DNA from: Chamaelirium japonicum
Taxonomy: Eukaryota; Streptophyta; Magnoliopsida; Liliales; Melanthiaceae
Assembly (NCBI GenBank): GCA_947650365.1
Contig: OX393557.1
Location: 48,932,418-48,996,417, forward strand
Length of the DNA stretch: 64,000 bases
Direction: 5' to 3'
In this document: positions 10,170 through 60,571 of the stretch, one piece after another
Layout of the letters: each line of letters starts with the position of its first letter
How positions within the stretch are numbered: position 1 is the stretch's first letter
Position numbers and translations under genes: made by a program
The notes under the pieces: generated by a model
Seen by the model: only the letters and a program-made list of their open reading frames with translations
Database searches by the model: none
Told to the model about the DNA's origin: nothing

Positions 10170-10453
10170 ATATACGTGGGGCTTCTCAACCCTCTCTACA
10201 GAAATGTTTTCGAAACTGAACTGGACATCGAACCGAAAAGGTTCCCGGGCCGATCTAGATCAGTTCAAACTGACGGCTCAGCCGGTTGAACCAGACAAAT
10301 CATAGGATCAATAGTAAGAGTCTTTCATCCATAGTTCACATGTTGGAAGCCTAGGTGGCCATAATCTGACTGTTTTTTTTATTTTTGAAAATGGTTTTAT
10401 CATATAACCAGCCGGTTCACACTTTTACCCCAGTTCAATCGGGAGGTCGGGAT
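10170..10453. other. Non-coding spacer with CCGGTT-type repeat text
   Basis: No gene seen. It contains AACCGGTTC-like phrases similar to the left end of the hAT transposon near 49330, plus AT-rich text. Confidence 0.35.
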
Positions 10454-12074: not shown

Positions 12075-12121
12075 GGGGGAGATATTGGATGAAACAAAAA
12101 GATTTCAGCAATATCTCCCCC
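12075..12121. promoter_or_regulatory. Stem-loop upstream of the LTR TATA box
   Basis: GGGGGAGATATTG (12075-12087) and CAATATCTCCCCC (12109-12121) form a perfect 13-bp stem with a 21-nt loop. It ends 17 bp before TATAAATA and is conserved in all three LTRs (also near 15352-15398 and 25262-25308). It could be a promoter element or an RNA structure; role unknown. Confidence 0.7.
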
Positions 12122-12138
12122 AACCACCCACCTTTGCC

Positions 12139-12146
12139 TATAAATA
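12139..12146 (+). promoter_or_regulatory. LTR 1 TATA box
   Basis: TATAAATA followed by GAGGGGGTGGGGGAAGG, in the same context as the other two LTRs. Confidence 0.75.
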
Positions 12147-13744: not shown

Positions 13745-14599
13745 GGCCCCCGCGCCCGCTGCCTGCGCCGCCCGCGTACTGAGCCCGCAGCCCCGGCCTC
13801 CTCCGCGCCCTCGCGCCGCTCGCGCGCTGCGCCCGCAGCCCCGGCCGCCTCCGGCCCCCGCGCCGCCCGCACAGCCCGCTGCTGCGCCCGGCCCCCGCGC
13901 CGCCCGCACAACCCGCCGCTGCACCTGCCCGCTCGCGCCCGGCTCCGGCTCCAGCGCCCTGCGCCCGCGCCGCCGGCCCCATCGCCCTGCGCCCGCGCCG
14001 CCGGCCCCCGCAGCGTGCCGCTCCGGCCCCCGCGCCCTGCCGCACCGGCCCGCGGCCTTGGCTGCGCCCGCCGCGCCCTGCGAACCCGGCCCCGCGCTCC
14101 GAGCCCGTCTCCATCCTACGCGCCGGCCGCCATAGCAGCCCCCGGCCGCGCCCGTCGCACGCACGCAGCCCCGGCCTCCATCCCTCCCGCGCGCCGGCCA
14201 CCACAGCAGCCCCCGGCCGCGCCTCGCACCCTCCGGCCACCGCACCGGCCCACGCCCACCATGCGAAAAAAAAAAAAAAAAAAAGAAGAAGAAGAAGAAG
14301 AAGAAGAAGAAGGAGGAGGAGGAAGAAGACGCGCCTTGCTTGCGACCCTCCGCCGTCCACGGGCCGACGATCTTCCCTCCTCCAAGAACCCCATGGCGTC
14401 ACCATCTTCATCCTCCGCGGCATCGTTGCGAAGCAAGAAACCCTAGCAGAGCTCTCAACTCCAAGCCGCCGGGAATCGCCGATAATGAAGAGAAACGAAA
14501 GACAGGGGTCCTTTTAAAGACCTAATCCCACACGAATACGCGACTCAAGTCCAACCGCTACACGTTTCCCGCGGGCGCGCTCGAACTTGAGGGGGCACT
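13745..14599 (+). other. Fragment of 3' internal region between LTR 1 and LTR 2
   Basis: Very GC-rich text (CCGCGCCCTGC-like units), an A18 run (14265-14282), (GAA)n, then TTTCCCGCGGGCGCGCTCGA and a purine-rich tract (CTTGAGGGGG, 14585-14595) directly before LTR 2. The same order precedes the right LTR at 24480-24519, so this is the 3' tail and polypurine tract of an element whose remaining interior is deleted. It is homologous to, but clearly diverged from, the 22.2-24.5 kb region. The apparent long Ala/Pro/Arg frames here are base-composition artefacts. Confidence 0.75.
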
Positions 14600-15402
14600 T
14601 GTGGGCATCGAAATTAGCCCACGGGTCGAACCCGATTTTTACACAAAAAAATAAGCCCGCACCCGACGGCCTTCGGGTCAAACCCGATTTTTACAAAAAA
14701 AATGGGCCCGCACACAACGGCCCGCATGCGAAATTGGGCCCGCACACAACGGCCCGCATGCGAAACTGGGCCCGCACACAACGGCCCGCATGCGAAACTT
14801 GGGCCCGCACACAACGGCCCGCATACGAAACTCGGCCCGCGTGCAAGCTCAACCCGCGCACCATGGCCCAACTCGAAGCAAACGGGTCCCACCGGACCCG
14901 CGACTCGAACACAAAGAGGGGGGCCCACCGGCCCCCCCCCTTCTAGAAAACCGTGCCCCCCTCTTCATGGAGAGGTGGGGCCGGCCCTTCTAGAAAACCG
15001 TGCCCCCCTCTTCATGGAGAGGTAGGGCTGGCCCTAAAAGAAAAAGAAAAGAAAAAGAAAAGAAAAAGAAAAGAAAAAGAAAAGAAAGGAAAAAGAAATC
15101 AAAACCGCCTCGATGCGGGGGGAGGTGGCGTGGACGTCTACGTAGCCGTAGATCCGCGACGATCCCTCGATCCAACGGACAAGATGACGTTGTGTCGCCA
15201 TCCGATCCAAAAGTGCAACAAGAATAACAACTCAATCTTTAAAAGATCGAGTCACATCTAGCCCGTAACCGCCCCAACTAAAAGGGAGGGGGTTGAGTTT
15301 GTTTCCCCGAATCAAGGAACAAAATCTCCATGGTTATGGGGGGAGATATTGGATGAAACAAAAAGATTTCAGCAATATCTCCCCCAACCACCCACCTTTG
15401 CC

Positions 15403-15410
15403 TATAAATA
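15403..15410 (+). promoter_or_regulatory. LTR 2 TATA box
   Basis: TATAAATA, 1.3 kb upstream of the gag start and preceded by the conserved stem-loop. This is the promoter positioned to transcribe gag. Confidence 0.75.
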
Positions 15411-16605
15411 GAGGGGGTCGGGGAAGGCATGAAGCGTCGGAAAGCCGAAGACGAAAGAGCTTCGCAAGAGAAGCTCCAACGCTCGAAGACCGAAGGCTTC
15501 ACGAGGCACGGCAAGCATATCCTACGGGAGTCCTTGGCCCTTCAAGTCCTCATCAACGTGAAGACCTTGCACTCGGAGATCAAAGCTTCGACTCCTCGCA
15601 CGAAGAAGAAAGCGTGGAGAAGAAGACCCGGAGCCGTCATCACCCGATTGCTCCAACGATCTTCATCAGCTCCGAAGAAGCCATAAGCAAAGGCCGGAGA
15701 AGAAGATCGAAGCCGACAACACTCGTCGTCTTCAATCAAAGCATCGACTCCTCGCACGAAGAAGAAAGCCGGGAGAAGAAGGCCTGAAGCCGATGCTACC
15801 CCTGCCGCCTTCGTCAACCAAAAGCCGACGCTACAACCGTCGTGCTAAAGCCGGTGCCACACCCGCCGTCTTCATCAACGAAAGTCGACGCCACAACCGT
15901 CGCACAAGCATCGGTGCTACCCCCGCCGAAAAGCCAAAACCGACGCCACAACCGTCGAGGAAGCCGGAAGAGTAAAGAAGCCTTGAAGAGGTAACGCCAG
16001 TCGTTCGAGAAGAAGATCGAGTCGAAGCTAAAGTCAAAGCCGACGCAAGAAGCCAAAGCAAACGCACCGGTAAAGCCCGCGCTAAAGCAACGCACGTGCC
16101 AAAGCCAAGCAACTACGACGGTCACGAGCAAAGCACCGCACGTTCTAGCCGATACGACGCGAAGTCCGGAAGAACTAAAGCATCGCAAGTCTCTACCCGT
16201 CTACGTTCAAGCGCAAGCGCCAAAGCAAAGCAAAAGCCAGAGCCACGCCAAAGCTACGCCAAATCCGAAAGCTAAAGCCAAAGCTGACGCCAAAAACACG
16301 ATCGACGCCGCGAACCGACGATCAAGGACGCCGAGGTCGAGCAAGGATCGAGGAAGACACGAAGACCGAGGAACGAAGCCCAAAGCCTCCCTAGCCGAGA
16401 AAGCGCGAAGCACGGACGGGACAAGATCAACGGCGGAACTCCTTAGCCTCTCAAAAACCCTCACCCTGTAAAGACCTCTGTCCTGGGCAACCCCTTCAGA
16501 GCTCTCACACGAATACCACGTGGAGACGCGGATCAAAGGGACCCTCCAGAGGATCTCTCCCACAATCTCCTGATCAAAGAAAATTTGTAATCTCGTGTGA
16601 TCCGC

Positions 16606-16611
16606 AATAAA
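16606..16611 (+). terminator. LTR polyadenylation signal
   Basis: AATAAA about 30 bp before the LTR end. The same hexamer is present in LTR 3 (about 27430). Confidence 0.5.
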
Positions 16612-16647
16612 GACGACCCGAATCTTTTTTCCGCGACCACAGATTTC

Positions 16648-16665
16648 TGGCACGCCCGGTGGGAC
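16648..16665 (+). promoter_or_regulatory. Primer-binding site
   Basis: TGGCACGCCCGGTGGGAC starts six bases after the LTR ends. TGG is complementary to the CCA end of a tRNA. The tRNA species was not determined. Confidence 0.65.
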
Positions 16666-16714
16666 CATCCTCTCCTTTCATCCGTACGTTTGAAGGAGTT
16701 GCTTCAAGTTCGCA

Positions 16715-19700
16715 ATGGCCGGAACGAACGATGATACGTTTGCTCCAACAAGCCTCTCACCTATCGCCGAGTCTCCACTACTCCAACACGGCGATCCAGA
16801 AAACCCGGTGGATGACATTCCCCCGGTAGTACGCGTTTACACTCGGCGTACTCAAACTCTTGCGGACTTCTTCACGCCAGAAACTGCTGCTGAAGGTGCT
16901 CGCCAAATCACCAATGAGGCCTTGGTGCATGAAGAAACAAGCCTCAATCCTGGAACATCTGTCCAGAAGTTTGGGGAGGACCAGCCCCAACCCCGAACCC
17001 GTTCGGGTTCTCCAGCGGACTTTGCACCTCCCTTGCCGGGGGCAAACATCCGTCATCAAGCAGAAGCAAGTCAGCGTAACTACGTGTCCGACGACGATGG
17101 CGAGGGTGCGGGCATGCAACATCGAGACGTCCTGCGACATCATCCTCCGTCCGCTCTCCAGCTCCAAGTCATGCAAATGGGTGAACACATGGCTCAGCTC
17201 ACCCGACTAATGGAAGAGAAAGATCGTTACATCAACACCTTGCTTCAAAGGCTGAGTGCCAGGGATGTCGCAACATTCGGTCAACCTCCTGCTTCTCCAG
17301 TAGCTGCTCCAGCCCCGTCTCCAACTCCTGCTCTTGCAGAAGTTGGCCCGACAATACTAGCAACTACTCCTGCACTTCCCTCGGCTCCCGTGCCAGCCTC
17401 GGCGGCCGCGCAACCTTCGATGGCAGCGACGATGAATGCCCAGCAGATACAAGCACTGGTGGCAGACATGATGCGTTCCCACGGCAGTAGCCTACCTCCG
17501 ATTACGGTGGCATATTCAAAGCCTTACACCACAAGGATCCAACAGCTGCGCTTCCCTACCGGGTTCCAGCCACCAAAGTTCCAGCACTTCGACGGGAAGA
17601 GAAATCCAAGGCAACACATTGCCCACTTCGTCGAAACTTGCAACAACGCCGGCACATACGACGACGCGATGGTGAAGCAGTTCGTTCGCACCCTCAAAGG
17701 TAATGCTTTTGACTGGTATGTTGATCTTCCTCCAGGATCCATTGACAGCTGGGATCAAATGGAGAGGGAGTTCCTCAACCGCTTCTACAGTACTCGACGC
17801 ATCGTCAGCATGACCGAGCTTACTGCTACCAAGCAAAGGAAGGATGAGCCGGTGATCGACTACATTGATCGTTGGAGAAACCTTGCGCTAAACTCGCGAG
17901 ATCGCTTGTCTGAAGACTCGGCTATTGAGTTGTGCACCCAAGGCATGCACTGGGGCTTGCTCTACATCCTCAAAGGGATCAAGCCTCGGTCCTTCGAAGA
18001 ACTGGCGACTCGAGCCCACGACATGGAGCTCAGCTTAGCAAATCGCGGGGACTCAAAGGCCATAGCCTTCCAGAAGGTGGAAGAGGAGGACGAACCGGCG
18101 GCATCAAAGCAAGTTAATGTCACCGACCTCGCTTCGACTTCCAAACCACTCAAGATCGGTGGCAAGCTGGACAAAGGCAAAGGAGCCGCCATACCACCTC
18201 CTCAGCCTCAACGGCCACCAAGGATGACCCTCGAGGAGCTTGAAGCTAAGGAGTATCCCTTCCCAGACTCGGAAGTTTCCTCCATGTTTGATCAGTTGAT
18301 GCAAGAAAAGATGATCGAGCTTCCGCCACCAAAAAGGCCGGAACAAGCACATCGAGTCAACGATCCGCTCTTCTGCAAGTACCACCGGATGGTCAGCCAT
18401 CCCATCGAGAAGTGCTTTGTCTTTAAAGATAAGATCATGGCACTCGCCAAGCAAGGGATGATCGAGATCGACTCTGGTGATATCGTCGAGTCAAATATGA
18501 CGTCAATCACCTTCGATTCCTTCCCGCCAGCACTGATTGCTCCACAACGCACTTCAGCAAGGCTGCGCATCGTCTGTCAAAGATCAATGGCGAAACCAGC
18601 TCCAAGAAGACGACAACGGTATGCTCCTGCAGTGCCCAGGGCCAAATCCTCACTGCTTTGGGGGCAACCGCCTCTCGCGCAAACACTCCCTCTTCCAAAC
18701 AAAGCTACATCCCAGCATGTGCTCAAAGCAAGAAACGAGCAAAGAGACCCTGAAGTCAGCCTGCTAGGCCAGCCATCAGGTAAGTTCGACTTCTATGTCT
18801 TTTACTCCAAGCTTCCTTCAATCCCAATAAAAGAAGTCAAGCCAACCGGCTGGGGATCAGAAGATGAATCGGTAAAGCCTATAGAAGAGCAAGTCCTTCA
18901 GATCAAAGAAGAGCCTTTGATTACAACACCAATTCTTCACCCTGGCGAGAAAGATCTTCTTGATAAAAACGCATGGGCTATGACGCCTCGAAGGAGAAGG
19001 CCACGACAGTCAAGCTACAGGATAGCATGTCTGGCCAACCACGAGCAAGATCGGACGACAAGAAAACTCCCCGAAAGAAAGACCTTCAAGGAAAAGAGTG
19101 AAGCTCCAGAACGAAAGACATCCAAAGTACCTCCAGCAAGTCCGGAAAATCTTCTCCAGCAAACATACCCAGAGCTGGTGACACTCCAGGAGTTCTTTCC
19201 CAATCGCTTCCTCGAAGCTGATCAAAACTTCAAACTTTCCTGCTGCATGATGGAAGTTCACCAAGTGCTCCAGGAAGACGATAAAGAAGGCAGCACCAAT
19301 ATCGAAAGCATGGAGAGAAGCATTGCTGCCAACGACAAGCCATTCAATAAGGACGAAGCACACCTTGCTGACATCGAATTCCACCAGGTCAAAGACCCCG
19401 TTGCAGAAGTTCCTCCAGCAAAAGCTCTACGAGCCCGGAAAGTCAAAGCAGCTGCGAGGGACAAAACCTCTCCACTTGCAAAACCAGTGATATCCTCCGG
19501 CCAGACAGTGCACAAAGATAAAGAAGCATCGGCTTCAAAACGGAAAATTCACATCAACTCCAAATCAAGCTCAACGCCACACGTTCCGTTGCCTGCTCTA
19601 GATGCGACAGCCCTGTGGCTCGCGCCTCAATGGCTTCGCAAGCCAGGACGATCGCCTTCCATTCCAGCAAAGGAACTATCATCACAATTCTCCAAGGCCA

Positions 19701-20134
19701 ACTTCATCACTTTGCAAGAGATGGCACTACCGTTACATGGTCTGTTGCATGTCTCGAGCTCAACCGAGTCTTCCGAGTACACCAGCTCCGAGCAACTCGC
19801 AATCAAGCCAGGAAACACTCGGGGGCAAAACTCCACCGAATTGATGTTCAAATCCAGCCGCAACAAAGAAAGCACAGTGCATATGAGTTCACTACCCTCA
19901 GCTGCAATACCACATCGCCTGACAAAGACTCAAGCACGCCTCCGCAAAATTGGCGAACAAATTCTTCCAAATCGCCGAGACACCGGATCCAGTCAAACTC
20001 CAGCAATCATCAAAACTCCAGTCAAAAGGATCTTCACTTCTAACTACATTGAAGCGAAGAAGGCGGATGACAACTGTGAACCAGCGGCGACTCTGCCTAC
20101 CAGCGGCAAGTCCCTCAAAAGGTACTTTGCCTAG
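16715..20134 (+). CDS. gag: Large Gag polyprotein of the TR-GAG element
   Basis: Uninterrupted frame of 1139 codons starting 73 nt after LTR 2 (MAGTNDDTFAPTS). Residues ~1-270 are acidic then Ala/Pro-rich. Residues ~275-440 are the retrotransposon Gag core (FQPPKFQHFDGKRNPRQHI, FDWYVDLPPGSI, MEREFLNRFY), which builds the cytoplasmic virus-like particle in this family. A zinc-binding C-x2-H-x4-H-x4-C motif, CKYHRMVSHPIEKC, lies near residue 553, as in Tat-type Gypsy Gags. Residues ~600-1139 are a long charged tail (Lys/Ser/Glu-rich) without a recognised domain. The tail is unusually long for a Gag and no protease motif was seen in it. An intact frame suggests recent mobility. Confidence 0.88.
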   Translation: MAGTNDDTFAPTSLSPIAESPLLQHGDPENPVDDIPPVVRVYTRRTQTLADFFTPETAAEGARQITNEALVHEETSLNPGTSVQKFGEDQPQPRTRSGSPADFAPPLPGANIRHQAEASQRNYVSDDDGEGAGMQHRDVLRHHPPSALQLQVMQMGEHMAQLTRLMEEKDRYINTLLQRLSARDVATFGQPPASPVAAPAPSPTPALAEVGPTILATTPALPSAPVPASAAAQPSMAATMNAQQIQALVADMMRSHGSSLPPITVAYSKPYTTRIQQLRFPTGFQPPKFQHFDGKRNPRQHIAHFVETCNNAGTYDDAMVKQFVRTLKGNAFDWYVDLPPGSIDSWDQMEREFLNRFYSTRRIVSMTELTATKQRKDEPVIDYIDRWRNLALNSRDRLSEDSAIELCTQGMHWGLLYILKGIKPRSFEELATRAHDMELSLANRGDSKAIAFQKVEEEDEPAASKQVNVTDLASTSKPLKIGGKLDKGKGAAIPPPQPQRPPRMTLEELEAKEYPFPDSEVSSMFDQLMQEKMIELPPPKRPEQAHRVNDPLFCKYHRMVSHPIEKCFVFKDKIMALAKQGMIEIDSGDIVESNMTSITFDSFPPALIAPQRTSARLRIVCQRSMAKPAPRRRQRYAPAVPRAKSSLLWGQPPLAQTLPLPNKATSQHVLKARNEQRDPEVSLLGQPSGKFDFYVFYSKLPSIPIKEVKPTGWGSEDESVKPIEEQVLQIKEEPLITTPILHPGEKDLLDKNAWAMTPRRRRPRQSSYRIACLANHEQDRTTRKLPERKTFKEKSEAPERKTSKVPPASPENLLQQTYPELVTLQEFFPNRFLEADQNFKLSCCMMEVHQVLQEDDKEGSTNIESMERSIAANDKPFNKDEAHLADIEFHQVKDPVAEVPPAKALRARKVKAAARDKTSPLAKPVISSGQTVHKDKEASASKRKIHINSKSSSTPHVPLPALDATALWLAPQWLRKPGRSPSIPAKELSSQFSKANFITLQEMALPLHGLLHVSSSTESSEYTSSEQLAIKPGNTRGQNSTELMFKSSRNKESTVHMSSLPSAAIPHRLTKTQARLRKIGEQILPNRRDTGSSQTPAIIKTPVKRIFTSNYIEAKKADDNCEPAATLPTSGKSLKRYFA

Positions 20135-22128
20135 CGCAAGGTTACCCCCCTTGCCCCAAAAAAAAAAAAAAAAAAAAAAGTAATAAAGGAACTACGTGTG
20201 ACTTGATCCCTCTCAGTAGGGTACGTAGGCAGCCTGTAAAGGTTCAGTCCAAACAAAAAAAAGTAAACCACCATTCCAGAAAATGAGCCCAGAAAAGACG
20301 CAAGTCCCACTCCGGGGGATCGAGAAGCCGTCAGCCTCCGTCAAGCCACCAGCTCCCGCAGCTTACACGCGCTGCAACTCCAGGGGTAGAGAAACCGTCA
20401 GCTTCCGACGCGTCGCCAGTTCTGCACGTTGCTTCACAAGGTTCGCTCCGGAAGCCTTCTCGATCGCCCTGCCAGCTCAACGCGTCGCCAGCTTTGCACG
20501 CTGCTTCGCAAGGAGGGACTTCAACTTCTGAAGCGACGTGCGAGTAATCTCCACCTTCTTCTGCACCCGAACCAAGTCTGCAGTATCAAACGTGTGAAGC
20601 CCCTCCAGTCGACATCCCTCTTCCTCGGCCTTTGCCAACGCCAATGAAGTGTCCTCCTCTAGTGAAGCCCATTGCAAGCATTGAGCCTAGCTATCCGCCA
20701 AAAGGGTGCACATATGCTCCTCAAACAAGGAGCCATCCACCAGAAAACCCACCAGCTACTCAAAAGCGTCAAGACCCTCCTCCTGGAGGGGTGCGAGCGT
20801 CGCCTGGATAAACTTCCAGCACAACTTTTTCAAAAGAAGCTTAGAAAGAAGGCTCTGCGATCTACACTTTCGCTGGCAAGCATTTAAGCACGGAGACAAG
20901 GCGCAATCCTGTCCTGAAGACCCACACACGGGAGCCGCCTCCTGGACCATCCCCGTGTCGGCTGTCAAAGACGCCACAAGAACTGACAAAGAAGCTGCGG
21001 CCAAAACATCCGTGGGAGCTGACTCCTGAATGGAAACTCCGGACTCGGTCGAACGATTTGCCGTGAAGATCCCTCATCGGTGAGAATGAGCTCATCCAAC
21101 TTTCGACACACGCTTCCTGCTTCAAAGAACGGCGACAGAAGACTTGCGCAAAGGGAAACGAAGATGCGTACTCCCGTGGGAGACCGCATCGACGATCCAT
21201 CCAGAAGTCGGAAAGCTCTCGTAACGGCGGCAGAAGACTTGCGCAAAAGGGAAATAAAGATGCGTACTCCCGCGGGAGACCGCATCGACGATCCATCCAG
21301 ACGACGAAAAGCTCTCTTAACGGCCGGCCCTGAAGAAAGAAATGAAGAAAAGCACGAATCAGTCACGCATACATACACAAACAAATCAAGTCAAGGCAAA
21401 AAAAAAAAAAGGGGCCCTGAGCCAAGGACTGTATCCTTCGTGACCTCCACGAAGCCAAAAGGATTGTTGGAGCAGTCACCAAGGTCAAGATCGGCATGCA
21501 AAAGACGACCAAAGCAGGCTGCTCCTTGTCAACGCTAGTGGCTTTGTCTTGCTTCTCGTCGAACTCCAGAACGCCCGTCTCAACGTCCTTCAAGCTGATG
21601 TCACCACCAGGAAAGCTCTCTCCATAGGCCTCCAGCGACCCATGGTCGTCTAGAGGAAGATCCAGTCCACCTCACTCAGCCAGCCCAGGTGCAACCTCGC
21701 TAGTCGCTCTGCTCCCGCGATAGGCCTCCTCAATGATCCAGCCGGCCTTTAGAAAGCACTCGAAGGGACAAGTCCTGCAAGGAAACAAAAAGTCCAAGTC
21801 AAATCAAGATGCACAATCAGTTCCAGAAGAAAAGACAGATCAAGTCCAGAAGTCAAAAAAAAAAAAAAAAAGAGGGTTAAATCCGAAGAGAAAAAGGCAG
21901 TCAAAATCTGGGAAGAAAAGTCAAGACAATTAAAAAAAAAAAGGGGGTCCAAAGATCGAGAAGAAAAAGCGAGCCAAGTCCAGAGGGGATCATCAGTCAA
22001 GACCAAAAAAAAAAAAAAAAAAGAAAGAAGAAGAAGAAGAAGAAGAAATAGGGCCACAGCCTTGTAAACACGTGGAAACGGCGGGCCACAACCACAATTT
22101 CCTCAAAAAGGCCAGCACCCCCTTCTCT

Positions 22129-22180
<52 letters not shown>

Positions 22181-24519
22181 GTCCCTGTTTGCGAAAAGGT
22201 AAACTGAGAGGGGGGCCACAACAAAAAGCCGCAGCACCCCCTCTCTCCTGCTAAAACCCGGCCGAGCCCGCCTCCGGCCTGCGCCCTCCCGCGCCACCAG
22301 CCCGCGCGCCGGCCGCACCCTGCAGCCCCCGGCCGCGCCCCGTCTCCGGCTCGCGCGCCGGCCGCACACCGCAGCCCCTGGCCGCACGCCGGCCACCGTC
22401 GTTGTCGTGCCACTCGTGCCAAGCTTGGCCACGACCAGCCACTGCTGTTGCCGACACCGCAATCGCACCTCGCCCTCGCTGCAGTTGTGCCTCCTGTGCT
22501 GTTTCACGCGCGCCGCCTCCGCGCCCCAAGTCAACTACCATAGCCTCTGGACCTTTGACCGCGCGACCAAGATCCGCGGCCTCCAGGGAGGCTGAAGCCT
22601 CGACCCCGAGCCCGCCTGCGTTGCAGCCGGCGTCGACACCGCCACCGGCCCCCGCGTCTTACCAGGCCTCGACCGCATGACCTCCGGCCGGCCTTCGCGC
22701 ACCGGATGCCAGCAGCCGAACACCGCTGCCGGTCTCTGAGCCCACCCGAACCGCCGCTGGGCCACTCTGCTGCTACTGCTATCGGTTAACAAAACCCAGG
22801 GGTCACCGTCCTTAATGACAAAAGGAAAATTACATAGGGGCCGCAGCAAAAAGAGCCACTGCCCCTTCCCTCTTAAAAAAACCCACAGCCCCCAAACAGG
22901 GTTGTGGTCTTCAACCCGTGCGACTGGAGCCCGTCGACCGCGGGCCACACACCGCAGCCCCCGGCTGTGCCCCGTCTCCGGCTCGCGCGCCGGCCGCACA
23001 CTGCAGCCCCCGGCCGCGCCCCGCCTCCGACCCGCGCACCGGCCGCACCCCGCAGCCCCCGGCCGAGCCCTCCACCGCGTGACCAGCCGTCTACCCACGC
23101 CAGACACCTACAGCCCCTTTTGCAATAAGGGAAACCGAGAGGGGGCCGCAGCAAAAAAGCCGCAGCCCCCCTCTCCTGTTAAAAAAAAAAAAAAAAAAAA
23201 AAAAAGAAAGGGGTAGAACCGGAGGGGAGCCACCACCTCTCCCCTCTCTCTCCATTGAAGGCCCGAAACGGAGCCGGTGCACGCCGGCCTCCGCGCCCCG
23301 CTCGCCGGTGCGCCCCGCAGCCGCCACCCGCGCCGGCCTGACCGCTCCACGCCCGCCGCTCCGCGCCCCGCGCCAGCCGCCTCCGCGCCGTTGCTGCTCC
23401 GCTGGCCCCCGCGCCCCGCGCCGGGTCACTGCACCCTGTCCCACGCGCCGTGCCGGCCACCGCAGCCCCGCGCCCGGCCGCTGCACCCCGGCCCGCGCCG
23501 CACCGCCCGCCTGGCCTGCGCCCCGCGTGCCGCACCGCCGAGCCGCTGCCGCCTGCGCCACCCGCTGCCCCGGCACTGCACCTGGGCTCCGCCCCGCGCG
23601 CCACTCCAACCCGGCCTCGCAGTCATCACCGCCAGCCGCACGTGCCCCGCCTGCCGCACCCTGCGCCGCGCCGACCACCGGCCACCGCCCCGCGCACGAT
23701 CGCCTGTGCCGCCCGGACTCCTCACCGCACGCCACCGCTGCTGCTGAGCCGGCCACCTCAGCCCGCCCGCGCCGCAGCCCGCCTGCGTCCGGCACCTTGC
23801 CACCACCCGCCGGCCTGCGCCCCGCGCTCCGCACCACCCCAGCCCGCCCGCGCCGGCCTAAGCACGCCGCAGCCCACCTCCATTCGCGCCTGCGCCGCTG
23901 ACCCCGCGGACCCGACGGCAAAGACGAAGAAGAAGAAAAAAAATGAAATCTATTTTCCATTTAACCCCCTATATATATGCACAATCGGTTATTAGGATAG
24001 AGACGTGATCCCATGAATCTAGACGGTGGACATCCATATCCGATGTAACCACGAGAGAAAAAAAGAGAACACGAAGAAAGTGGGGCCGCACCTCGTCGAA
24101 TCTGTCTCCTCCCTGCGCTGTGCCAGACGCATAGTCATCATCACATTCGGCCACAACAATCGGCTTCCACCATTGAGCTCCCGCACCGAAGAGGGGCAAT
24201 AACCTTCCGTCGAGACGCATCGCGGCCGTCCTCACGCTCCCGTCGCCTTGCTATCCTGGGACTCCGCGCAGCGGCCGCCGTCAACATTCGCGCCATCCTC
24301 GAAGCAAAGGAAGTCCGCGACAACAAGACAGATGAACAAAACCCTAGAAGAGATTTTCGTCTCCAAACCGCCAAAGCCCTTCGTCCCCCGCGCTAGCAAA
24401 ACGATGGGGGAAACGAAATGGCGAGGGTCATTGTAAATACCTAAATTCCGAGCGAACACGCAAGTCAAGTCCAAGCGCTACGCGTTTCCCGCGGGCGCAC
24501 TCGAACTTGAAGGGGCATT
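20135..24519 (+). other. Non-coding internal region of the TR-GAG element
   Basis: No pol-like frame. A motif with GTGACTTGATCC and GGGTACGTAGGCAGC (20195-20233) resembles a phrase common after the coding region in Tat-type Gypsy elements. Several A runs (20160, 21400, 21857, 22004, 22132) are present. From 22060 to 23930, three related modules repeat: an A run or short AT text, GGGGCCGCAGCAAAAA-like text, a C-rich phrase, then a strongly GC-rich block (CGCGCCGGCCGCAC). It ends with TTTCCCGCGGGCGC and the purine tract CTTGAAGGGG (24506-24515) before LTR 3. Confidence 0.75.
21118..21322 (+). repeat. Tandem repeat, about 105-bp unit
   Basis: Two adjacent copies of GAAGACTTGCGCAAA...GGGAGACCGCATCGACGATC, in one open frame. 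They differ at a few positions. Confidence 0.8.
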
Positions 24520-27465
24520 TGTGGGCACCGAAATTAGCCTACAGATTGGACCCGACCCGCATGCGAACACGGCCCGCACACAACGGCCCGCATGCGAAAC
24601 CAGGCCCGCACACAACGGCCCGCATGCGAAACTCGGCCCACACACAACGGCCCGTATGCGAAAATCTGGCCCACGCACAACGGCCCGCATGCAACTTGGC
24701 CCACACACAATGGCCCACATGCGAACCTCGGCCCATACACAACGGCCCGCATGCAAATTGGGCCCGCACACAAATGGCCCGCATGCGCACTCGGCCCGCG
24801 TGCAAACCCAATTCGCGCATCGCGGCCCAACTCGAAGCAAACGGGTCCCACCGGACCCGCGACTCGAACACAAAGAGGGGGGCCCACCGGCCCCCCCCCC
24901 TCTTGAAAACCGTGCCCCCCTCATCAAGGAGAGGTGGGGCCGGCCATAAAAGAAAAAGAAAAGAAAAGAAAAAGAAAAGAAAAGAAAAAGAAAAGAAAAA
25001 GAAAAGAAAGGAAAAAGAAATCAAAACCGCCTCGATGCGGGGGGAGGTGGCGTGGACGTCTACGTAGCCGTAGATCCGCGACGATCCCTCGATCCAACGG
25101 ACAAGATGACGTTGTGTCGCCATCCGATCCAAAAGTGCAACAAGAATAACAACTCAATCTTTAAAAGATCGAGTCACATCTAGCCCGTAACCACCCCAAC
25201 TAAAAGGGAGGGGGTTGAGTTTGTTTCCCCGAATCAAGGAACAAAATCTCGATGGTTATGGGGGGAGATATTGGATGAAACAAAAAGATTTCAGCAATAT
25301 CTCCCCCAACCACCCACCTTTGCCTATAAATAGAGGGGGTGGGGGAAGGCATCAAAGGTGGAAAGCTGAAGAGGAAAAGGCTCTGCAAAGACGAGCTCCA
25401 ACGCTTGAAGACCGAAGGCTTCACGAGGCACGGCAAGCATATCCTACGGGAGTCCTTGGCCCTTCAAGTCCTCATCAACGTGAAGACCTTGCACTCGAAG
25501 ATCAAAGTTTCGACTCCTCGCACGAAGAAGAAAGCTTGGAGAAGAAGACTCGGAGTCGTCGTCATCCCGACTTCTCCAACGATCTTCATCAACTCCGAAG
25601 AAGCCATAAGCAAAGGCCGGAGAAGAAGATCGAAGCCGACAACACCCGTCGTCTTCAACAAAGGCGTCGACTCCTCGCACGAAGAAGAAAGCTTGGAGAA
25701 GAAGGCCTGAAGCCGGTGCTACCCCTGCCGTCTTCGTCAACAAAAGCCGACGCTACAACCATCGTGCGGAGATCGGTGCTACCCCCACCGTCCTCACCAA
25801 CAAAGCCGACGCTACAACCGTCGTGCGGAGATCGGTGCTACCCCCGCCGTCTTCATCAACAAAGCCGACGCTACAACCGTCGTGCGGAGATCGGTGCTAC
25901 CCCCGCCGTCTCCACCAACAAAGCCGACGCTACAACCGTCGCACGGAGATCGGTGCTACCACTGCCGTCTTCATCAACAAAAGCCGACGCTACAACCGTC
26001 GCATAGAGATCGGTGCTACACCCGCCATCTCCAAAAGAAGCCTTCAACTCCAATCAAGCCAAACACGCCCGGAGAAGAAGCCGACGTCACAACCGTCGCA
26101 TAGAGATCGGTGCTACACCCGCCATCTCCAAAAGAAGCCTTCAACTCCAATCAAGCCAAACACGCCCGGAGAAGAAGCCGACGTCACAACCGTCGCCAGG
26201 TCCAAAAGCCGAAGACGAAAGAGCTTCGCAAGAGAAGCTCCAACGCTCGAAGACCGAAGGCTTCACGAGGCACGGCAAGCATATCCTACGGGAGTCCTTG
26301 GCCCTTCAAGTCCTCATCAACGTGAAGACCTTGCACTCGGAGATCAAAGCTTCGACTCCTCGCACGAAGAAGAAAGCGTGGAGAAGAAGACCCGGAGCCG
26401 TCATCACCCGATTGCTCCAACGATCTTCATCAGCTCCGAAGACGCCATAAGCAAAGGCCGGAGAAGAAGATCGAAGCCGACAACACTCGTCGTCTTCAAT
26501 CAAGGCATCGACTCCTCGCACGAAGAAGAAAGCCGGGAGAAGAAGGCCTGAAGCCGGTGCTACCCCTGCCGCCTTCGTCAACCAAAAGCCGACGCTACAA
26601 CCGTCGTGCTAAAGCCGGTGCCACACCCGCCGTCTTCATCAACAAAAGCCGACGCTACAACCGTCGCACAAAGATCGGTGCTACACCCGCCGTCTTCATC
26701 AACGAAAGTCGACGCCACAACCGTCGCACAAGCATCGGTGCTACCCCCGCCGAAAAGCCAAAACCGACGTCACAACCGTCGAGGAAGCCGGAAGAGTAAA
26801 GAAGCCTTGAAGAGGTAACGCCAGTCGTTCGAGAAGAAGATCGAGTCGAAGCTAAAGTCAAAGCCGACGCAAGAAGCCAAAGCAAACGCACCGGTAAAGC
26901 CCGCGCTAAAGCAACGCACGTGCCAAAGCCAAGCAACTACGACGGTCACGAGCAAAGCACCGCACGTTCTAGCCGATACGACGCAAAGTCCGGAAGAACT
27001 AAAGCATCGCAAGTCTCTACCCGTCTACGTTCAAGCGCAAGCGCCAAAGCAAAGCAAAAGCCAGAGCCACGCCAAAGCTACGCCAAAGCCGAAAGCTAAA
27101 GCCAAAGCTGACGCCAAAAACACGATCGACGCCGCGAACCGACGATCAAGGACACCGAGGTCGAGCAAGGATCGAGGAAGACACGAAGACCGAGGAACGA
27201 AGCCCAAAGCCTCCCTAGCCGAGAAAGCGCGAAGCACGGACGGGACAAAATCAACGGCGGAAACTCCTTAGCCTCTCAAAAACCCTCACCCTGTAAAGAC
27301 CTCTGTCCTGGGCAACCCCTTCAGAGCTCTCGCACGAATACCACGTGGAGACGCGGATCAAAGGGACCCTCCAGAGGATCTCTCCCACAATCTCCTGATC
27401 AAAGAAAATTTGTAATCTCGTGTGATCCGCAATAAAGACGACCCGAATCTTTTTCCGCGACCACA
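24520..27465 (+). repeat. LTR 3 (right, complete)
   Basis: 2,946 bp from TGTGGGCACCGAAATTAGCC to GCGACCACA, followed by the target duplication ACACC. It is near-identical to LTR 1 over the shared part, with one extra ~30-bp CAGGCCCGCACACAACGG unit near 24600. Its TATA box is at 25325-25332, inside the same stem-loop context. Confidence 0.88.
25325..25332 (+). promoter_or_regulatory. LTR 3 TATA box
   Basis: TATAAATA in the same context as the other LTRs. It could drive read-through transcription to the right. Confidence 0.7.
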
Positions 27466-27505
27466 ACACCGAAGATATTCATAGACCGGTCAGACCGTTA
27501 GGAGT

Positions 27506-29268: not shown

Positions 29269-29314
29269 TCAGAAACAGGCATCCAAGAGACAGCAACAGC
29301 AGAGGGCGGCCAAG
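29269..29314 (-). CDS. CYSTM gene exon 3 (last, 46 nt)
   Basis: Acceptor ATCTGTCAG|CTTGGCC on the minus strand. The first base completes the Cys codon split from exon 2 (TG|C), then LAALCCCCLLDACF and TGA. Other frames through this segment give unrelated text, so it is easy to miss in automatic annotation. Confidence 0.9.
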
Positions 29315-31803
29315 CTGACAGATCAGCACGAGATTAAAAATGTTTTTTTTTTGAATTCGTAAGGTAAGGTGTCCCGTGCGGTAAGGTGGCCGGACTAAGT
29401 AGTAAGTGCATCTCAGTTAGCCTTCCATCAGAGATACGGAAGGCCCTGACGAATCTGATCCGCCACTTACGGTACGGGACACCATAAGGTTATTCGGCAA
29501 ACCGGAGACATGGAGTTGTTCGCACGTCATCGACCAACGTTTTTTTAAGGGGAATTTTATTCATACCCCATAAATCTGTAATTAGCCCCCATTTCCAACA
29601 AACTTGAACACACCCCATTTTTTTTTTTCATACCCCATTCCTATCCCAAAAATACCCTTCCCCCTTACACCCACCTGCAATACACCCCAGTTAAATGGCC
29701 CGCCCCAACTTGATTATACCCCAATCAAACACATACCCCCTTAAATATACCCCAATTATATGCACTCTTGAATACACCCCACTCTTAAATAAACTCCATG
29801 CAGTTGGCTCATACTTGAAGGCACAAGTAGAGCTGCAACTTGGGCGGGTCAACCTGAACCCAACCCGAGTCCAACCCGAACCCAACCCGAATTTGGGCGG
29901 GCTAATCCGAGCCCAACCCGAATTATTTCTCCTCGACCCGGCAGGACCCGACACGAAATTAGCGGGTCTGGGACAAGGCTAAACGGGTTCGGGTCGTAAA
30001 CGGGTCGACACGATAGACCCGTTTAATAAACGGGTCGGGTCCGGGTTTAGGGTCTGGACACGATAGACTCGGGAAGACCCGTTTAGTATTCAACGGGTCG
30101 GGTCGTGTCGGGTCGGGTCGGGTCTACCAGCAATCCAATACTATAATATATAATACCAGTGGGTCTTTCGGGTCAGGTCGGGTCAAGTCGGATTGGGTCG
30201 GATCGGGTCAACTAAATAGATCCGGGTGGTAAACGGGTCTTACCGGGTCTTATCATGTCTACCTATTTATTAGCGAGTCGGGTACGGGTTTAGGATCTAG
30301 ACACGATTAGTTAAACGGGTCGGGTCCGGGTCTAGGGGTTTTGGACACGACACGAAACTAGACACGACACGAACCCGACCCGACTCGACACGACTCATTG
30401 CCACCCCTAGCTGCAACTTGGGCGGGCCAACCCGAACCCAACCCGACTTTGGGCGGGTTAACCCGAACCCACCCCGCACAACCCGGCCAACCCGACGGGT
30501 TGGGCTTGGGCTAAGTTTAAACAAACATTGGGTTGGGTTGGGGGTACAAAAGACGCTGAGCAGCGGCTTTGGGGTTTGGGGTACAAAAAAAAGGGCATTG
30601 TTGGTATTAAAGGATTGTTGAGTAAGTTATTGAGAAACGCTAGGGATAGGGGGGCTAATTACAGATTTTTGGGGTATGAATAAAATTTCCCTTTTTTAAA
30701 ATGTAAATTACACTAACACCCCTGAATTATCTGATAATTACATTAACATCCTCTCTAGTTTCTACAATTATTCTGACACCCTTATAGTTTAATTGTCTGA
30801 ATTGTCTGTATCAATTAGCCCCACTCGTTAGTCAACCGTTAGAAAAATGAATGGAGAATGCTGACATATACTGATGTCAGCCCACTTTAATTTAAAAATA
30901 CATAGTTTATCCTCACCTCTTTAAACTAGTATGCTCTTGTTTTTAAGATAAAAGATAAAGGATAGATGACAGGGGAGAGAAAGGGATTTTCGATAGGGGT
31001 GTGTAGGATCCAAACCAAACCGATTAAACCAACCAAACCTATCTGTTTCGACACACTCAATGCATCGGATTGGATTGGTCGGCGGATTTGTTAATCTAAA
31101 AGCAACCTAAACCGAACCAAGCCAACATATGTATATACATATAGTATTTTATTAAGTATACCATATGTCCTCAAATACCCTTCTACCAACAACCTTTGCA
31201 ATATTGTATGATAACTCAAAATTAGTTAAAAATCTTATTTAGGATTAATGATTTGATAACAATTATTATTTTTAAGTTGAAATTAAGTCCTAATAGAAAG
31301 GAGAAAATAAAGCCCAATAAGAGTATGGGCCAAAGCCTAAACCGACCATCGAAACCGACTTTAATTGGATCGGATCGGATTCCAACCTCATTTCGGTTTG
31401 GAACGGGTTGAAAATCCTCAAAACCGACCAAAGTTGGATCGGTTTGGGTTTTGCCTAAATAGGTTGGTTTTGAACCGCTGCACACCCCTAATTTTTGATG
31501 CTCGCATATCCAACCAACTCCATCCAGGTCCACCATCTTCCGACGATCTCTGCTCAAATCCGATAATCCTCCAGCAATCTTTGCCCAAATCCGATCGTCC
31601 TTCGGCAAGCTCTACCCAAATCCAATCATTCTCCAGCAAGCTCTACCCATTATCTGGCCATCTATTTTCCTTTCTCCCATGCTTGGCCGAAATCACCATC
31701 CCCCTTGTCCCTTCATCTTTGGCCGTACTGGTGGAGGAGTGTGGAATGTGGTGGTGGGACGAGGAGGTGGTGGCCAAAACCCCATCTCCAACCCCCCCCC
31801 CCC

Positions 31804-31874
<71 letters not shown>

Positions 31875-34820
31875 TCCTCTTCCCCTTGGCCGAAACAGTC
31901 CATTCCCCCCTTCCCCCATGCCTTGGTCGAAATTGAAGTGGGGGTTGTGGTGGTGGTGGAGGTTGAGGAAGAAATGGTGGTGTGGTGAACTGGTGATACG
32001 GTGGCCAAAATCAATGAAGATGGAGAGGTGGAGTGGTGGTGGAGAGGAGTTGGAAAGGTGGTGGAGATGGTGGCTGAATTTGATGGAGAGGGGAGGAGGA
32101 AGGGGTATATTCGGAAGGTTATATCATCTGTTACTGCTGCTTGGGAGATAAACCTGACAAGGGGTGCTAGTGTAATTTCAGAAATGAGTGGGGGTGCCAA
32201 TGTAATTGTCAGATAATCCAAGGGTGTCCGTATAATTTACCTTTTTCTTTAAGGATAAAACACGGACACCCACTCTTGTTTTTTAAATTACACTACCACC
32301 CCCTGTAAGAGTTCTCCTAAACGACGTTAACTGATGATGCAAAATTCTGAATTTACCCCCTCCTTTCTACATCAAATTCGGCCACTATCTCCACCACCCT
32401 TCCAACTCCTCTCCACCACTACTCCACTTCTCCATCTTCCTTGATTTCGACTACCATATCACTACACCAACATCTCTCCCTCAACCTCCACCACTCCCAC
32501 TATATTTTAGGCCAAAGTATAGAGGGAGGGGGGAATGAGTGATTTCGACCAAGGGGAAGAGGAAGAAGAAGAGGAGGGGGATGGGGTTTCGGCCACCACC
32601 TCCTTCTCCCACCACCACATTCCTCACTCCTCCATCATTTCGACCAAAGTTGTGGTTTCTCTCTCTCACTCTTATGTGAGGGTTTAAAGGTAAGGATAAA
32701 CTAGGCATTTCCAAATTAAAGTGGGCTGACATTAGCTTATGTCACTATTCCCCATCTATTTCTCTAACGGTTGACTAACAGGTGAGACTATCTGATACAG
32801 ACAATTAAACTATAAGGGGTGCCAGTGTAATTTAAAAAACAAGAGGGGGAGTCGGATAATCCAGGGGTTGTCAGTGTAATTTACCCCTTTTTTTTTTTAA
32901 TGAGTAATGCTATATGGAGAGAAAAACATTGACAAACCAGACCCATATACAGGTGGCGGAGCCCATGGCTCAATGCGTCAACATTGGCACCAAGCGGGCT
33001 TCGCCATTAGTCCATGGGTCTGATTTGTCAATGTTTTTGGGGGTTATTAGTGTTAGCTCCGTAAAAAGGTTTTCGTTTAACGTTATGGGTATGTACGTTA
33101 AGCCCCTGTAGCTAGACTTTGGCTAATGGGAGCTCCTTCTCCAACGCAAATGTAATAACAAAATTTTAAATGACAATTTTACCCTACAAATAAAGTTTAA
33201 CAATCATAGTAAAAAAGTAACAATCAGTAAAAAGCAAAAATTTGTTAGTTTTGACTAACGCGGGCTCCTTTTGCCGCGCCCATTTAATAACAAAATTTTT
33301 AAATGACAATTTTAGCCCTACATATAGAGAAATGCTATTCAGCCCGAAGGTTTTACCGATTTCGCCGGCTCGATTGATGTGGCAGTGCGCAACTGGTGCT
33401 GTTAAAGATTTTAAAATCGCTAATGGGTTTTAGCCACCAGTTGCAAGCTGCCACGTCAATTGGGCCGACGAAATCGGGACAAACCTTCAGGCTGAATAGC
33501 ATTTCTCCTACGTATAAAGTGTAACAATCGTAGCAAAAAAGTAACAATTAGTAAAGAGTAACAATCCGTTAACAAAGAATAACAATTTGGTATGGCAAAA
33601 TATCTTAATTGTCGATTGATTGTTACGATATTTCTACTCATTTGGTCACAATATAATTATCTTCGTAACAAAAATGCATTTAACTATGGAAAACCAAGCT
33701 AATTCTATCTCGCACATAGAGTAACAATTAGGTAAAAAAGAATAACTATTTGAGCGGTTGATAGAATATTTTTGTTTTTATCAAAATATATAAGAAAAAA
33801 AATTATTTTGTGGTTTTAAATAAAAAATATGGAGTGATTTTAAATGTTTTTCATGTAAAAAGCGCTTCCTGTTAAGTTGTTAGTAGGAAATATAAATTTA
33901 TGAACTTGGGTTCGATGCTATTATCCTTTATGAGAAATGCTATTCAGCCCGAAGGTTTTTTCGATTCCGCCGGCCCGATTGACATGGCAACATGCAACTG
34001 GTGGATGAAACCGGATGAAACCAGCTAGCGACGTTTAAATCTTTTCAGCCACCAGTTGCACGCTGCCACATCAATCGGGCTGAGCGGAATCGGAAAAACT
34101 TTCGGGCTGAATAGCATTTCTCTATCCTTTATTTCTATTTGGTTCGGTGGTATTTCAGAAGGGAGCTGTTGCAATAAAGAATTTGTAGGAGGGCTTATTG
34201 CAAGTTGATTCCTTTGTCCCTCATATTTTTCTCGATGCAGTTTGTTCAAACAGCATTGGCTTTTTTGGCTCTTTTTTAATAAAGTCATTTGACCACAGCC
34301 CAACGACCCCCACCGACGCGGACTCGGCGCACGATAGCCCTTGGGACTGCTATCGTGCGCTGGAACCGGCGGAGCAGTCGAGGCGGCCCGTCGGCTCTCC
34401 CTTGATCGCCGTGATCTAGTGTGATCGTTGACGGCCAGGTACAGTGAGTGACATACACATACAGAGCGGGAGATCTTACCATCCCTCCATGAAGGAAGGG
34501 CCGCTGCTCTGCTGCTGCTGCGGCGGAGGCTGAGCGTACTGCGGAGGGTATCCCGCCGGCGGGTATCCCTGGGGTGGGGGATACCCCTGAGCGTACCCTT
34601 GCGGCGGATACCCCGGCGGCGGATAGGCGTCCTTCGGGTACCCCTCCGGCGGATAACCTTAGATCACAACACATCCAAACACAATTACGAACCTTAGACC
34701 CGTCAGATCCCCCAATCCTAAATCAGATCGAAATCCCGGCGGAGAAAAAATTGGTCCATATCAATCCATACCTTGGGGAGGTGGGACGCCAACGGGAGGC
34801 TGCTGGTTGTAGTAACTCAT
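29269..34820 (-). CDS. CYSTM (cysteine-rich transmembrane module) protein, WIH-like; whole gene
   Basis: Three exons join to 273 nt (90 codons) with canonical GT-AG sites and matching phases: 34820-34772, 34657-34480 and 29314-29269. The protein begins MSYYNQQPPVGVPPPQ, continues with Gly-Tyr-Pro-Pro repeats (GYPPEGYPKDAYPPPGYPPQ), a Gln/Ser stretch, and ends CLAALCCCCLLDACF, the family's C-terminal Cys-rich membrane module. Family members are small membrane-associated proteins linked to stress tolerance; the Arabidopsis WIH1/WIH2 pair acts in sporogenesis (recalled). The length is typical. Intron 1 is 114 bp; intron 2 is 5,165 bp and is largely transposons. Splice sites and frame are intact, so the gene can still make protein if the long intron is removed. 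Confidence 0.9.
29350..29500. repeat. Inverted-repeat segment in CYSTM intron 2
   Basis: GGTGTCCCGTGCGGTAAGG (29369-29387) pairs imperfectly with CTTACGGTACGGGACACC (29466-29483). Probably a small MITE or element end; class unknown. Confidence 0.45.
29550..30691 (-). mobile_element. Mutator-type MITE, family C copy 2, in CYSTM intron 2
   Basis: Long inverted ends: GGGAATTTTATTCATACCCC on the left and GGGGTATGAATAAAATTTCC on the right, extended to about 43 bp. Flanked by a 9-bp duplication with one mismatch (TTTTTTAAG 29541-29549, TTTTTTAAA 30692-30700). It is a reverse copy of 9076-10169 and carries the same central GACCC-rich TAGGGGTGGCAA-type block (ending ATTGCCACCCCTA near 30409). Confidence 0.85.
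30994..31490. mobile_element. hAT-type element, TAGGGGTGTGCA family, copy 2
   Basis: TAGGGGTGTGTAGGATCC on the left and TGCACACCCCTA on the right, with an 8-bp duplication bearing one mismatch (ATTTTCGA 30986-30993, ATTTTTGA 31491-31498). Half the length of copy 1 and lacks its GC-rich insert. Confidence 0.82.
31808..31870. repeat. (CT)n microsatellite
   Basis: About 60 bases of CT after a C run, inside the fold-back element. Confidence 0.95.
32922..33039. mobile_element. Small inverted-repeat MITE
   Basis: AAAAACATTGACAAACCAGA at the left pairs with TCTGATTTGTCAATGTTTTT at the right, and GCCCATGGC lies inside. Target duplication not found. Confidence 0.6.
33121..33570. repeat. Tandem duplication with a MITE in one unit
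   Basis: The text TAATAACAAAATTTT...GACAATTTT(A)CCCTACA...AACAATC(A/G)TAG(T/C)AAAAAAGTAACAAT occurs at about 33121-33236 and again at about 33241-33570. Only the second unit contains the MITE at 33327-33507. Confidence 0.7.
33327..33507. mobile_element. Mutator-type MITE, GAGAAATGCTATTC family, copy 1
   Basis: GAGAAATGCTATTCAGCC / GGCTGAATAGCATTTCTC ends, with a 9-bp duplication bearing one mismatch (CTACATATA 33318-33326, CTACGTATA 33508-33516). 181 bp. Confidence 0.85.
33931..34122. mobile_element. Mutator-type MITE, GAGAAATGCTATTC family, copy 2
   Basis: Same termini as copy 1, with a perfect 9-bp duplication TATCCTTTA (33922-33930, 34123-34131). 192 bp. It lies in the same CYSTM intron. 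Confidence 0.88.
34123..34479. other. Exon-proximal part of CYSTM intron 2
   Basis: No element end was found here. GC-rich text near 34300-34440 includes CGCACGATAGCCCTTGGGAC, whose inverse follows within 25 bases, forming a small hairpin. Confidence 0.35.
34480..34657 (-). CDS. CYSTM gene exon 2
   Basis: Acceptor GATCTAAG|GTTATCC and donor GGGATG|GTAAGAT. 178 nt encode the Tyr-Pro-Pro-Gly repeat region, the Gln4 stretch and SSGPSFMEG. Confidence 0.9.
34772..34820 (-). CDS. CYSTM gene exon 1
   Basis: ATG at 34820-34818. It encodes MSYYNQQPPVGVPPPQ plus the first base of a Gly codon; donor CCAAG|GTATGG. Confidence 0.9.
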
Positions 34821-46100: not shown

Positions 46101-49100
46101 AACCTTTTACACAGTTTTAACTCAAATATGACCCTTAACAAACTCACTTAGAAAATTGAGCCAAAATCCTGAAGGTTACAATGAAGGGATTCTAACCTAA
46201 CAAAAAACCCTGTCTCATTTAGGAATCATATTCTGTGCAGGATTCCTAATACCTTAAGGAAATCAATATTCAATGGGAATCCTAACTCATCAACGAGTCA
46301 TATGCAGGAATGGTCATGTGAAAAGAAAAGAAAAGAAAAGAAAAAAACTTACATCGGCTTTGGAGGTAGTAAAAAGGGATGTGACTACCGATTGTTGACG
46401 CTTTTGTTTTAAGGTAGAGGCTTCGATCGGAAAGAACTTACTAGGCTTCGATGGGAAAGAAAGAGGTCTTCGACTTCATATTGATTATGAATTCGACTTG
46501 GAATGAGTAGCAAACCTCTCCACTCAACTTCAATGTCATCACTTCAAAGATATGACTTCCTTCTCTCTGCTTCAATCATAGAGTGGACAACTGAAAATGG
46601 ATGGAAATGGATAGATTTATGTGAAAATGGATTGATTTCCACCCAAAAGAACAAACCCTCAATAAAATTCATTTTTTAAAAGAAATCTCTCTCTCTCAAT
46701 CATTTTTTTCCGTTGAATCATGATCAATAGGATCAATTGTTGTAACGTGCAGAGCATTGCCATAATGTGCAACTGAAATTTTATTGGAGAGTATTGTGGC
46801 GTAAGGCGTCTGCAGATTTTGACTCAATTTACTTTACTCTATTGGTACAGTAATCTCAAGTCAATTATTTGAATATGAGTTCATCAAGTTGTGCCACTAG
46901 CTCGAAGGCATCCTCCTCCGATGAAGAAGAGTTTTCCTCTTTGGAAATATGTGAGAAATATGGATAAGCTTAGTGAAGGATGGGCGAACCATTCTTGGCA
47001 ATGTCAATTTACCTTACCAAATCAAGAGGCGTTCCTACACAAGAGTGAGGGCTCATCTATTGAAGTTGAGTAGTTGTGGGCTTGGAGCGTGCACTAAAGT
47101 AACAACGAAGGATATCTCCTAAACTATGCAGTCAAAGTCGGTAGTTGGCCCTAGTAGGCCAAGGGCCGACTAGGACTAGTCGGAACTAATTCGGGACTAG
47201 TCGGCCAAAACTTATTCTAACCCCCCCCCTCCCTAAACATATATGATATATGAACTAGCATAAATGTCAATAAGTATATGATATTAGTTGGTTAATAACA
47301 ATACAAATCTTCACACTTCACAATATGGGTATAAATACATAAGTAACAGTCTAACAGAACACAGTTGTATTGGCTTCATGTCCATGTCAGAAGACTCAAA
47401 ACTAAGAATTCATCACAATATTTGTTTGATGATGTTTAATCTGTGAACAACCCCAATTTTGATTATAGGGTTATATGGATATCAACAAATAAACTAATTA
47501 TTTTTCTATGTTTTTATCTGAGATTCTCAGGTGCTCAACAAATGATTACAGGGAAGAACCATAGTTGTGAGTCTTGCGACTCAAGACTTTCAGCCAATGT
47601 AAAAAATCCAAACAAAATTGCTTGGAAAGACTCCTTTCAAAAAAAAATTGCTTACAGAATGCTGCTTGGGGACTAGTCGGGTCTAGTCGGGATTCCGCCC
47701 AGCAATGATTGAATCTGAATTACTCGGTCGGCAAAATGCCGCCTGGGGACTAGTCGCCGACTAGTCCTGACTTTGATAGCATAGCTCCTAAATGCAAAAA
47801 TTGGAGGAAGAATCTAAGTTGAGGTTGAAAAACAATGCTCCGTAGAGAGTACCATTGCCCTTGTCTACTATGTCATTGTCTTCATCTTCTTCTATTGGTA
47901 GTTTCAACTTTGTGCAAGAAGGATTTGAGTCAAGGAAGAAGAGAAAGTTTATTGCAAGTGGAAATGAAAATTTTATTGGAAAGGCATTTCACATGGCGGC
48001 TCGTGAGCAACTATATTCAAAGATTGCTAGAATGTTTTATTCATCAAGTTTGTCATTTCATCTAGGAAGAAACCTTTACTTTGTGAGCTCTTTAACATTC
48101 TCCGCCAACAATCAAATTAGTGGGTATGTGCCACCGGGGTATAATATGTTGAGGACTAGTTTGCTCCAAAAAGAAAAGTAAAAAATTGTGAGGTTGTTGC
48201 AACTTATTAGAGGCACGTGGAGGGAGAAAGGTGTGAGCATTATGAGTGATGGATGGAGTGACTCACAAAGGATGTATTTAATCAATTTCATAGTCGTGAC
48301 GGAGAGTGGACCTATGTTTCTTAAAGGAGTTCATTGTTCGGGTGAAGTGAAAGGCAAATACTTCATTTCTAACCTGATGAAGGAGGTAATTAATGAGGTT
48401 GGACACAAAAATGTAGTCCAAGTGATTACAAATAATGCGACAAATTGCAAAGGTGTGGGGCAAGTAATCGAGTCACAATTTTCTAGCATATTTTGGACCC
48501 CATGTGTTGTTCACACCCTCAACCTAGCCTTGAAGAATATTTGCAAGGCAACGAATGTGGAGAACAATGCTTTGACCTACGAGGAATATAGTTGGATCTC
48601 GAACATTTTCGGTGATGTTATGTTAATCAAGCACTTCATTATGAATCACTCGATAAGGTTGGTCATGTTCAATAAATTTGTGACATTAAAGTTGCTTTCC
48701 TTGGCCGAGACATTCTTTGCTTCAACGATCGTTATGCTTAAACAATTCAAGCTCATAAAATATGGTCTGCAAGCGATGGTTATAAGCGATAACTAGACTT
48801 GATATCGAGAGGATGATATCGGAAGAGCACGGTTTGTGAAAGACAAGGTTTTGGATGACATTTGGTGGGATTCCATTGAGTATATTCTCTCTTTTACCGG
48901 AAATATTTATGACATGATTAGAGCTTGTGACACGGACAAGCCGTGTCTCCACTTGGTTTAAGATATGTGAGATACAATTATTGAGAATGTTAAGTCCACA
49001 ATTTATAGGCATGAAGGAAAGAGACGTGAAGACTACTCTTCATTTTATGATGTGGTACAAAACATACTAATCGATCATTGGAACAAGAACACCCCGCTTC

Positions 49101-59591: not shown

Positions 59592-59633
<42 letters not shown>

Positions 59634-60524: not shown

Positions 60525-60571
<47 letters not shown>

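Follow-up and report, generated by a model that had tools for sequence, protein, structure and literature searches.

A minus-strand CYSTM gene in Chamaelirium japonicum carries a last intron of 5,165 nt, largely filled with repeats, whereas the same intron measures 190 nt in a compact paralog. The gene lies in a window of 64,000 nucleotides of contig OX393557.1 (the whole stretch of DNA that was analysed). The transposon-swollen intron is a clear and ordinary case of known intron growth; introns filled with transposable elements and their IBM2-dependent protection against early polyadenylation have been described before. The explanation we consider very probable is that of a conserved CYSTM gene present as a duplicate pair, this copy having gained a long intron 2 by insertion of DNA transposons into a short one and keeping its tail by ordinary splicing. 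A gene model, a compact paralog, repeats in the long copy only and purifying selection over the pair were all observed.

According to this explanation the ancestral phase-2 intron 2 would have been short, as it is in the sister copy, and would have reached its present length here through repeated DNA transposon insertion. The insertions most likely took place after the duplication (the alternative being a loss from the sister copy). Exon 2 is most likely spliced to the 46-nt exon 3, presumably with good efficiency, and the membrane tail would be kept. If the elements are methylated, early poly(A) sites within the intron should be kept silent by machinery of the IBM2/EDM2 type.

Gene model, paralog and selection

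The gene encodes a product of 90 amino acids in three coding exons of 49, 178 and 46 nt, all on the minus strand. The coding part of exon 1 (34772..34820) is separated by intron 1 (34658..34771, 114 nt) from exon 2 (34480..34657), which holds the GYPP-rich part. Intron 2 (29315..34479) is of phase 2 with GT-AG ends, and exon 3 (29269..29314), recovered by Pfam, acceptor scan and translation, contributes the CYSTM tail, its 46 nt including the stop codon. A preliminary description of this DNA had already placed a 46-nt exon at 5,165 nt from exon 2, and its coordinates turned out to be right to the base.

The Cys-rich tail CLAALCCCCLLDACF forms the end of the product and is read in frame across the junction between exons 2 and 3; the proline-rich (GYPP) part precedes it in the translation, as in the description of pepper Bs5. 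A Pfam profile search matches PF12734 (CYSTM) to residues 49-90 with 29.7 bits (cut-off, 25.2). We also scanned every minus-strand AG from 60 nt past the donor down to position 20000 (n=787), and the acceptor at 29314 is the sole one (1/787) that places CCC among the first 25 residues. Use of another last exon, raised earlier as the counter-case, was therefore rejected, since none of the scanned AGs except 29314 fits. Together with the equal exon lengths in the paralog, these results bear out the placement of the Cys-rich membrane module on the last exon. Known RNA families were also searched for in the window, and none reached its gathering score.

The paralog (G000:C9:29473409 onward; locus L010) is separated from this gene by 19.5 Mb of the contig. 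Its exons are likewise 49, 178 and 46 nt long (the counterpart of exon 2 was found by protein search), its introns measure 147 and 190 nt, and its tail reads CLAALCCCCVLDACF. Exon lengths, phase, protein and a palindrome in intron 2 are alike in both copies. The difference lies in intron 2, which in the paralog is without match to the elements of the window: there, only the opening bases, the palindrome and some simple repeats match the long intron. This length comparison is made with one compact copy in one species. Relatives of the MITEs described below are also found beside the paralog.

Over 87 codons, a simple Nei-Gojobori count yields a Ka of 0.038 and a Ks of 0.62 (Ka/Ks ~0.06), and in exon 3 the two copies differ at 5 of the 46 bases, with one difference altering the protein. 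Taken over the entire period since the duplication, the pair has evolved under purifying selection, though this ratio cannot show that it persisted once the elements had been inserted. A pseudogene was rejected given the intact frame and the Ka and Ks values. A related alternative is that this copy is decaying, with intron 2 no longer spliced well and the short-intron paralog doing the work. An intact-looking sister copy would indeed make such a loss tolerable, but exons, splice-site dinucleotides and frame are all intact and Ka/Ks is low over the pair, and we regard decay as extremely unlikely.

The protein search of the 1.52-Gb genome returned nine places, two belonging to this gene, two to the paralog and five being weak. 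One of the weak matches (L005 on C3) is GYPP-rich and holds one weak candidate with four Cys, the scanned stretch lacking a CCC tail; in the other four (L006-L009), the three forward frames contain nothing resembling a CYSTM motif. All five were rejected.

Repeat units filling intron 2

Seven repeat-like units together cover 3,930 of the 5,165 nt of intron 2, leaving 1,235 nt outside the delimited units. Nearest to the donor are two Mutator-type MITEs, MuMITE1 (33932..34122) and MuMITE2 (33327..33507), both described here on the minus strand like all following units. MuMITE1 has ATAAAGGATA on both sides, a duplication identical at 10/10 positions, and MuMITE2 has a duplication matching at 8/9. 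Both thus combine inverted ends with the 9-11 bp target-site duplication of Mutator-type elements; as a control, 10 of 20,000 random intervals had flanks that agreed at 8/9 positions or better. A further copy of the MITE, with TTTTGAGAG on both sides as judged by eye, is present elsewhere in the genome (L019). The earlier claim of two Mutator-type MITEs of one family is confirmed by these sister elements.

A 117-bp inverted-repeat unit, IR117, follows at 32922..33038. It has inverted ends, and no target-site duplication of 9-11 bp was found, the best at the given ends having 6 mismatches of 9. We guess that this is the unit that had been called a 'family C' Mutator MITE, a class for which we find no support (the matching of earlier names to IR117 and to the large units is a guess throughout). 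The long fold-back unit (30703..32884) has inverted arms and a candidate duplication that requires shifted ends and is confined to A-rich sequence. Nested inside it is a hAT-like element at about 30994..31490, with ends TAGGGGTGT/ACACCCCTA and flanks TCAAAAAT/TCGAAAAT delimited by eye, where an 8-bp duplication matches at 7/8; none is obtained with the scripted ends 31001-31494. TIR50 (29549..30691) is characterized by inverted ends of ~50 bp, a CCCGA-rich interior and the A-rich flanks TTAAAAAA on both sides, within which the duplication amounts to 8/8 or 8/9. The last unit, IR116 (29368..29483), is a 116-bp inverted-repeat unit adjoining exon 3, and its flanks differ at 2/9.

Relatives elsewhere were found for four of the seven units, namely both MuMITEs, the hAT-like element and TIR50, and the insertions are absent from the related 190-nt intron, which is the pattern of an intron filled by transposable elements. 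Four of the seven units are repeats, while the fold-back, IR117 and IR116 are recognized by their inverted ends only. Thus the transposon filling announced in the preliminary description holds, whereas its count of 'at least six elements' is at least one short of the seven delimited here, three of which were not found again in 20 sampled loci.

A genome search with MuMITE1 scored 40 places, itself included, from 3,702 first-look candidates. A second copy of the 1.1-kb TIR50 (90.7%) occupies 9076-10172 of the window, with ATATACGTG on either side as judged by eye, and a third lies in a sampled locus (L029), where no clear duplication was seen. The sample consisted of 20 stretches of 10 kb (200,000 bases, 5,000 N). 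The MuMITE family, the hAT-like element (partially) and TIR50 each have a relative in 1 of these 20 stretches, part of the TIR50 interior is matched in a second one, and the hAT-like element has partial relatives within the window as well. Searches with the fold-back arms, IR117 and the 3' unit IR116 (query 29350-29530) gave 0/20 sampled loci, as did those with two AT-rich parts, the unassigned stretch 34126-34279 and the intron start.

The rest of the window also holds mobile-element sequence. A long element occupies about 11400 to 27500; its frame of 1,146 aa contains a gag domain (PF03732) and lies between direct repeats of more than 2.3 kb (11395-13744 and 24584-26930), which are 98.9% identical and end ~1.8 kb from the CYSTM stop. 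Judged by these features, the element looks like a large one of the LTR type. Two frames at 48182-48793 and 50786-52210 carry DUF659, which we take to be a domain of hAT transposases. On the minus strand, a frame at 56092-56892 has DUF4283 together with a sub-threshold zinc knuckle, a combination that we presume to belong to LINE-type elements. Finally, a tandem array with a 300-bp unit in 3.1 copies is located at 59615-60543.

Donor stop, early polyadenylation and the shared palindrome

At the end of exon 2 the donor writes TGG-TAA. Because the donor itself supplies TAA, translation of an unspliced transcript would stop at once, and the read-through protein would end in FMEGW. The donor of the compact paralog writes this stop as well, so the tail-less form does not depend on intron 2 being long. 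It had been proposed that the protein would lack its membrane module after failed splicing or early polyadenylation. This much follows from the sequence, but the effect is not owed to intron length. A clean tail-less form from an unspliced or early-ended transcript is possible in either copy, with or without transposons.

An alternative is that the long intron works as a switch: early polyadenylation within the transposons would yield a 75-residue protein that ends in FMEGW and lacks the membrane tail, and stress or methylation would shift the ratio of the two forms. The immediate stop at the donor agrees with this. Early polyadenylation is possible because intron 2 contains four AATAAA words (a raw count), and early polyadenylation in heterochromatic introns has been reported for rice and Arabidopsis genes in the papers cited below. 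Given that the compact paralog has the donor stop too, we consider such a switch improbable, and growth of the intron with ordinary splicing remains our preferred explanation.

Common to both second introns is the palindrome GCGCACGATAGC-N10-GCTATCGTGCGC at 34327..34360 on the minus strand (1380-1402 in L010). Its arms, GCGCACGATAG and CTATCGTGCGC, are 12 bases long and 10 nt apart here; in the paralog the arms have 11 bases and are 1 nt apart. Each of three features arose once in 1,000 shuffles: a common word of 13 bases, a stem of 12 bases in the long intron and one of 11 bases in that of the paralog. There are nine genomic occurrences of the 13-base word GGCTATCGTGCGC, against two of its backward control. 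An exact partner arm at most 60 bases upstream is present at 2/9 of these places, which are the two paralogs. Three of the other seven have an incomplete arm, altered at one or two positions, and in one case the arm is far from the word. Two of the places (L040 and L042) show similar-looking GCACGAT-rich sequence, perhaps a repeat family.

Either an ancient element with a regulatory or structural role or an old insertion common to both copies might account for the palindrome. A more specific proposal is that the GCGCACGATAG/CTATCGTGCGC pair is conserved, acts in RNA processing or transcription and was kept near the donor as transposons took up the remainder of the intron, where with the donor stop it could switch between membrane-anchored and soluble forms; we think this very unlikely. 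Among the listed literature matches to GCGCACGATAG, CTATCGTGCGC and a 19-mer, AAV vaccine work was the only subject. A literature search for work joining a plant intronic transposable element, a tail-anchored protein and alternative polyadenylation found none.

Relation to known CYSTM genes and transposon-filled introns

The transposon-filled intron of this CYSTM gene changes no accepted idea. Its value lies in the duplicate pair, which forms a natural experiment: near-equal proteins are encoded with either a 190-nt or a 5,165-nt intron before the 46-nt exon of the membrane tail, and a transcript comparison of the pair would measure the cost of intron growth by transposons. The gene family concerned has been tied in print to stress and disease response.

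For Arabidopsis CYSTM1 (AT1G05340), exon 3 is printed as 46 nt (Table A1, PMC13205671). Read in the same phase by hand translation it gives CLAAMCCCCALDICF, with the junction splitting the codon of the first Cys. Another CYSTM gene, pepper Bs5, is reported to have three exons, with a two-leucine deletion of the membrane part in exon 3 (PMC10030403); its product is described with a proline-rich (GYPP) part before the tail. Because CYSTM1 has a third exon of the same 46 nt and Bs5 has three exons, the short final exon is most likely ancient, and not something that the long intron produced.

That the tail would place the protein in a membrane is taken from published accounts of related proteins, where the location is not uniform. 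Bs5-GFP is reported at the cell membrane. Arabidopsis PCM1-5 are given as plasma membrane proteins and PCM6-8 as located in cytoplasm and nucleus (PMC8049917), and the same paper mentions another study with a cytoplasmic signal for several Arabidopsis CYSTM proteins.

In rice, heterochromatic introns are reported in 4,227 of 37,866 gene models (~11%), and in OsIBM2-deficient plants 93 of 454 affected genes have such introns, with the downstream transcript lost by premature polyadenylation (PMC7145194). Similar results are described for Arabidopsis (PMC10241880).

Overall, the gene resembles the plant CYSTM/WIH/Bs5 genes, as far as these are described in the cited work, in its three exons, its GYPP-rich part and its Cys-rich tail, and its 46-nt phase-2 last exon is that of AT1G05340. 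It differs from them in an intron 2 of 5.2 kb filled with repeats, the sole length for comparison being that of the paralog. With the rice and Arabidopsis genes controlled by IBM2/EDM2 it shares an intron that is long mainly through transposons (PMC7145194). The reported rice cases lean to the 5' end of genes, whereas here it is the last intron that has grown.
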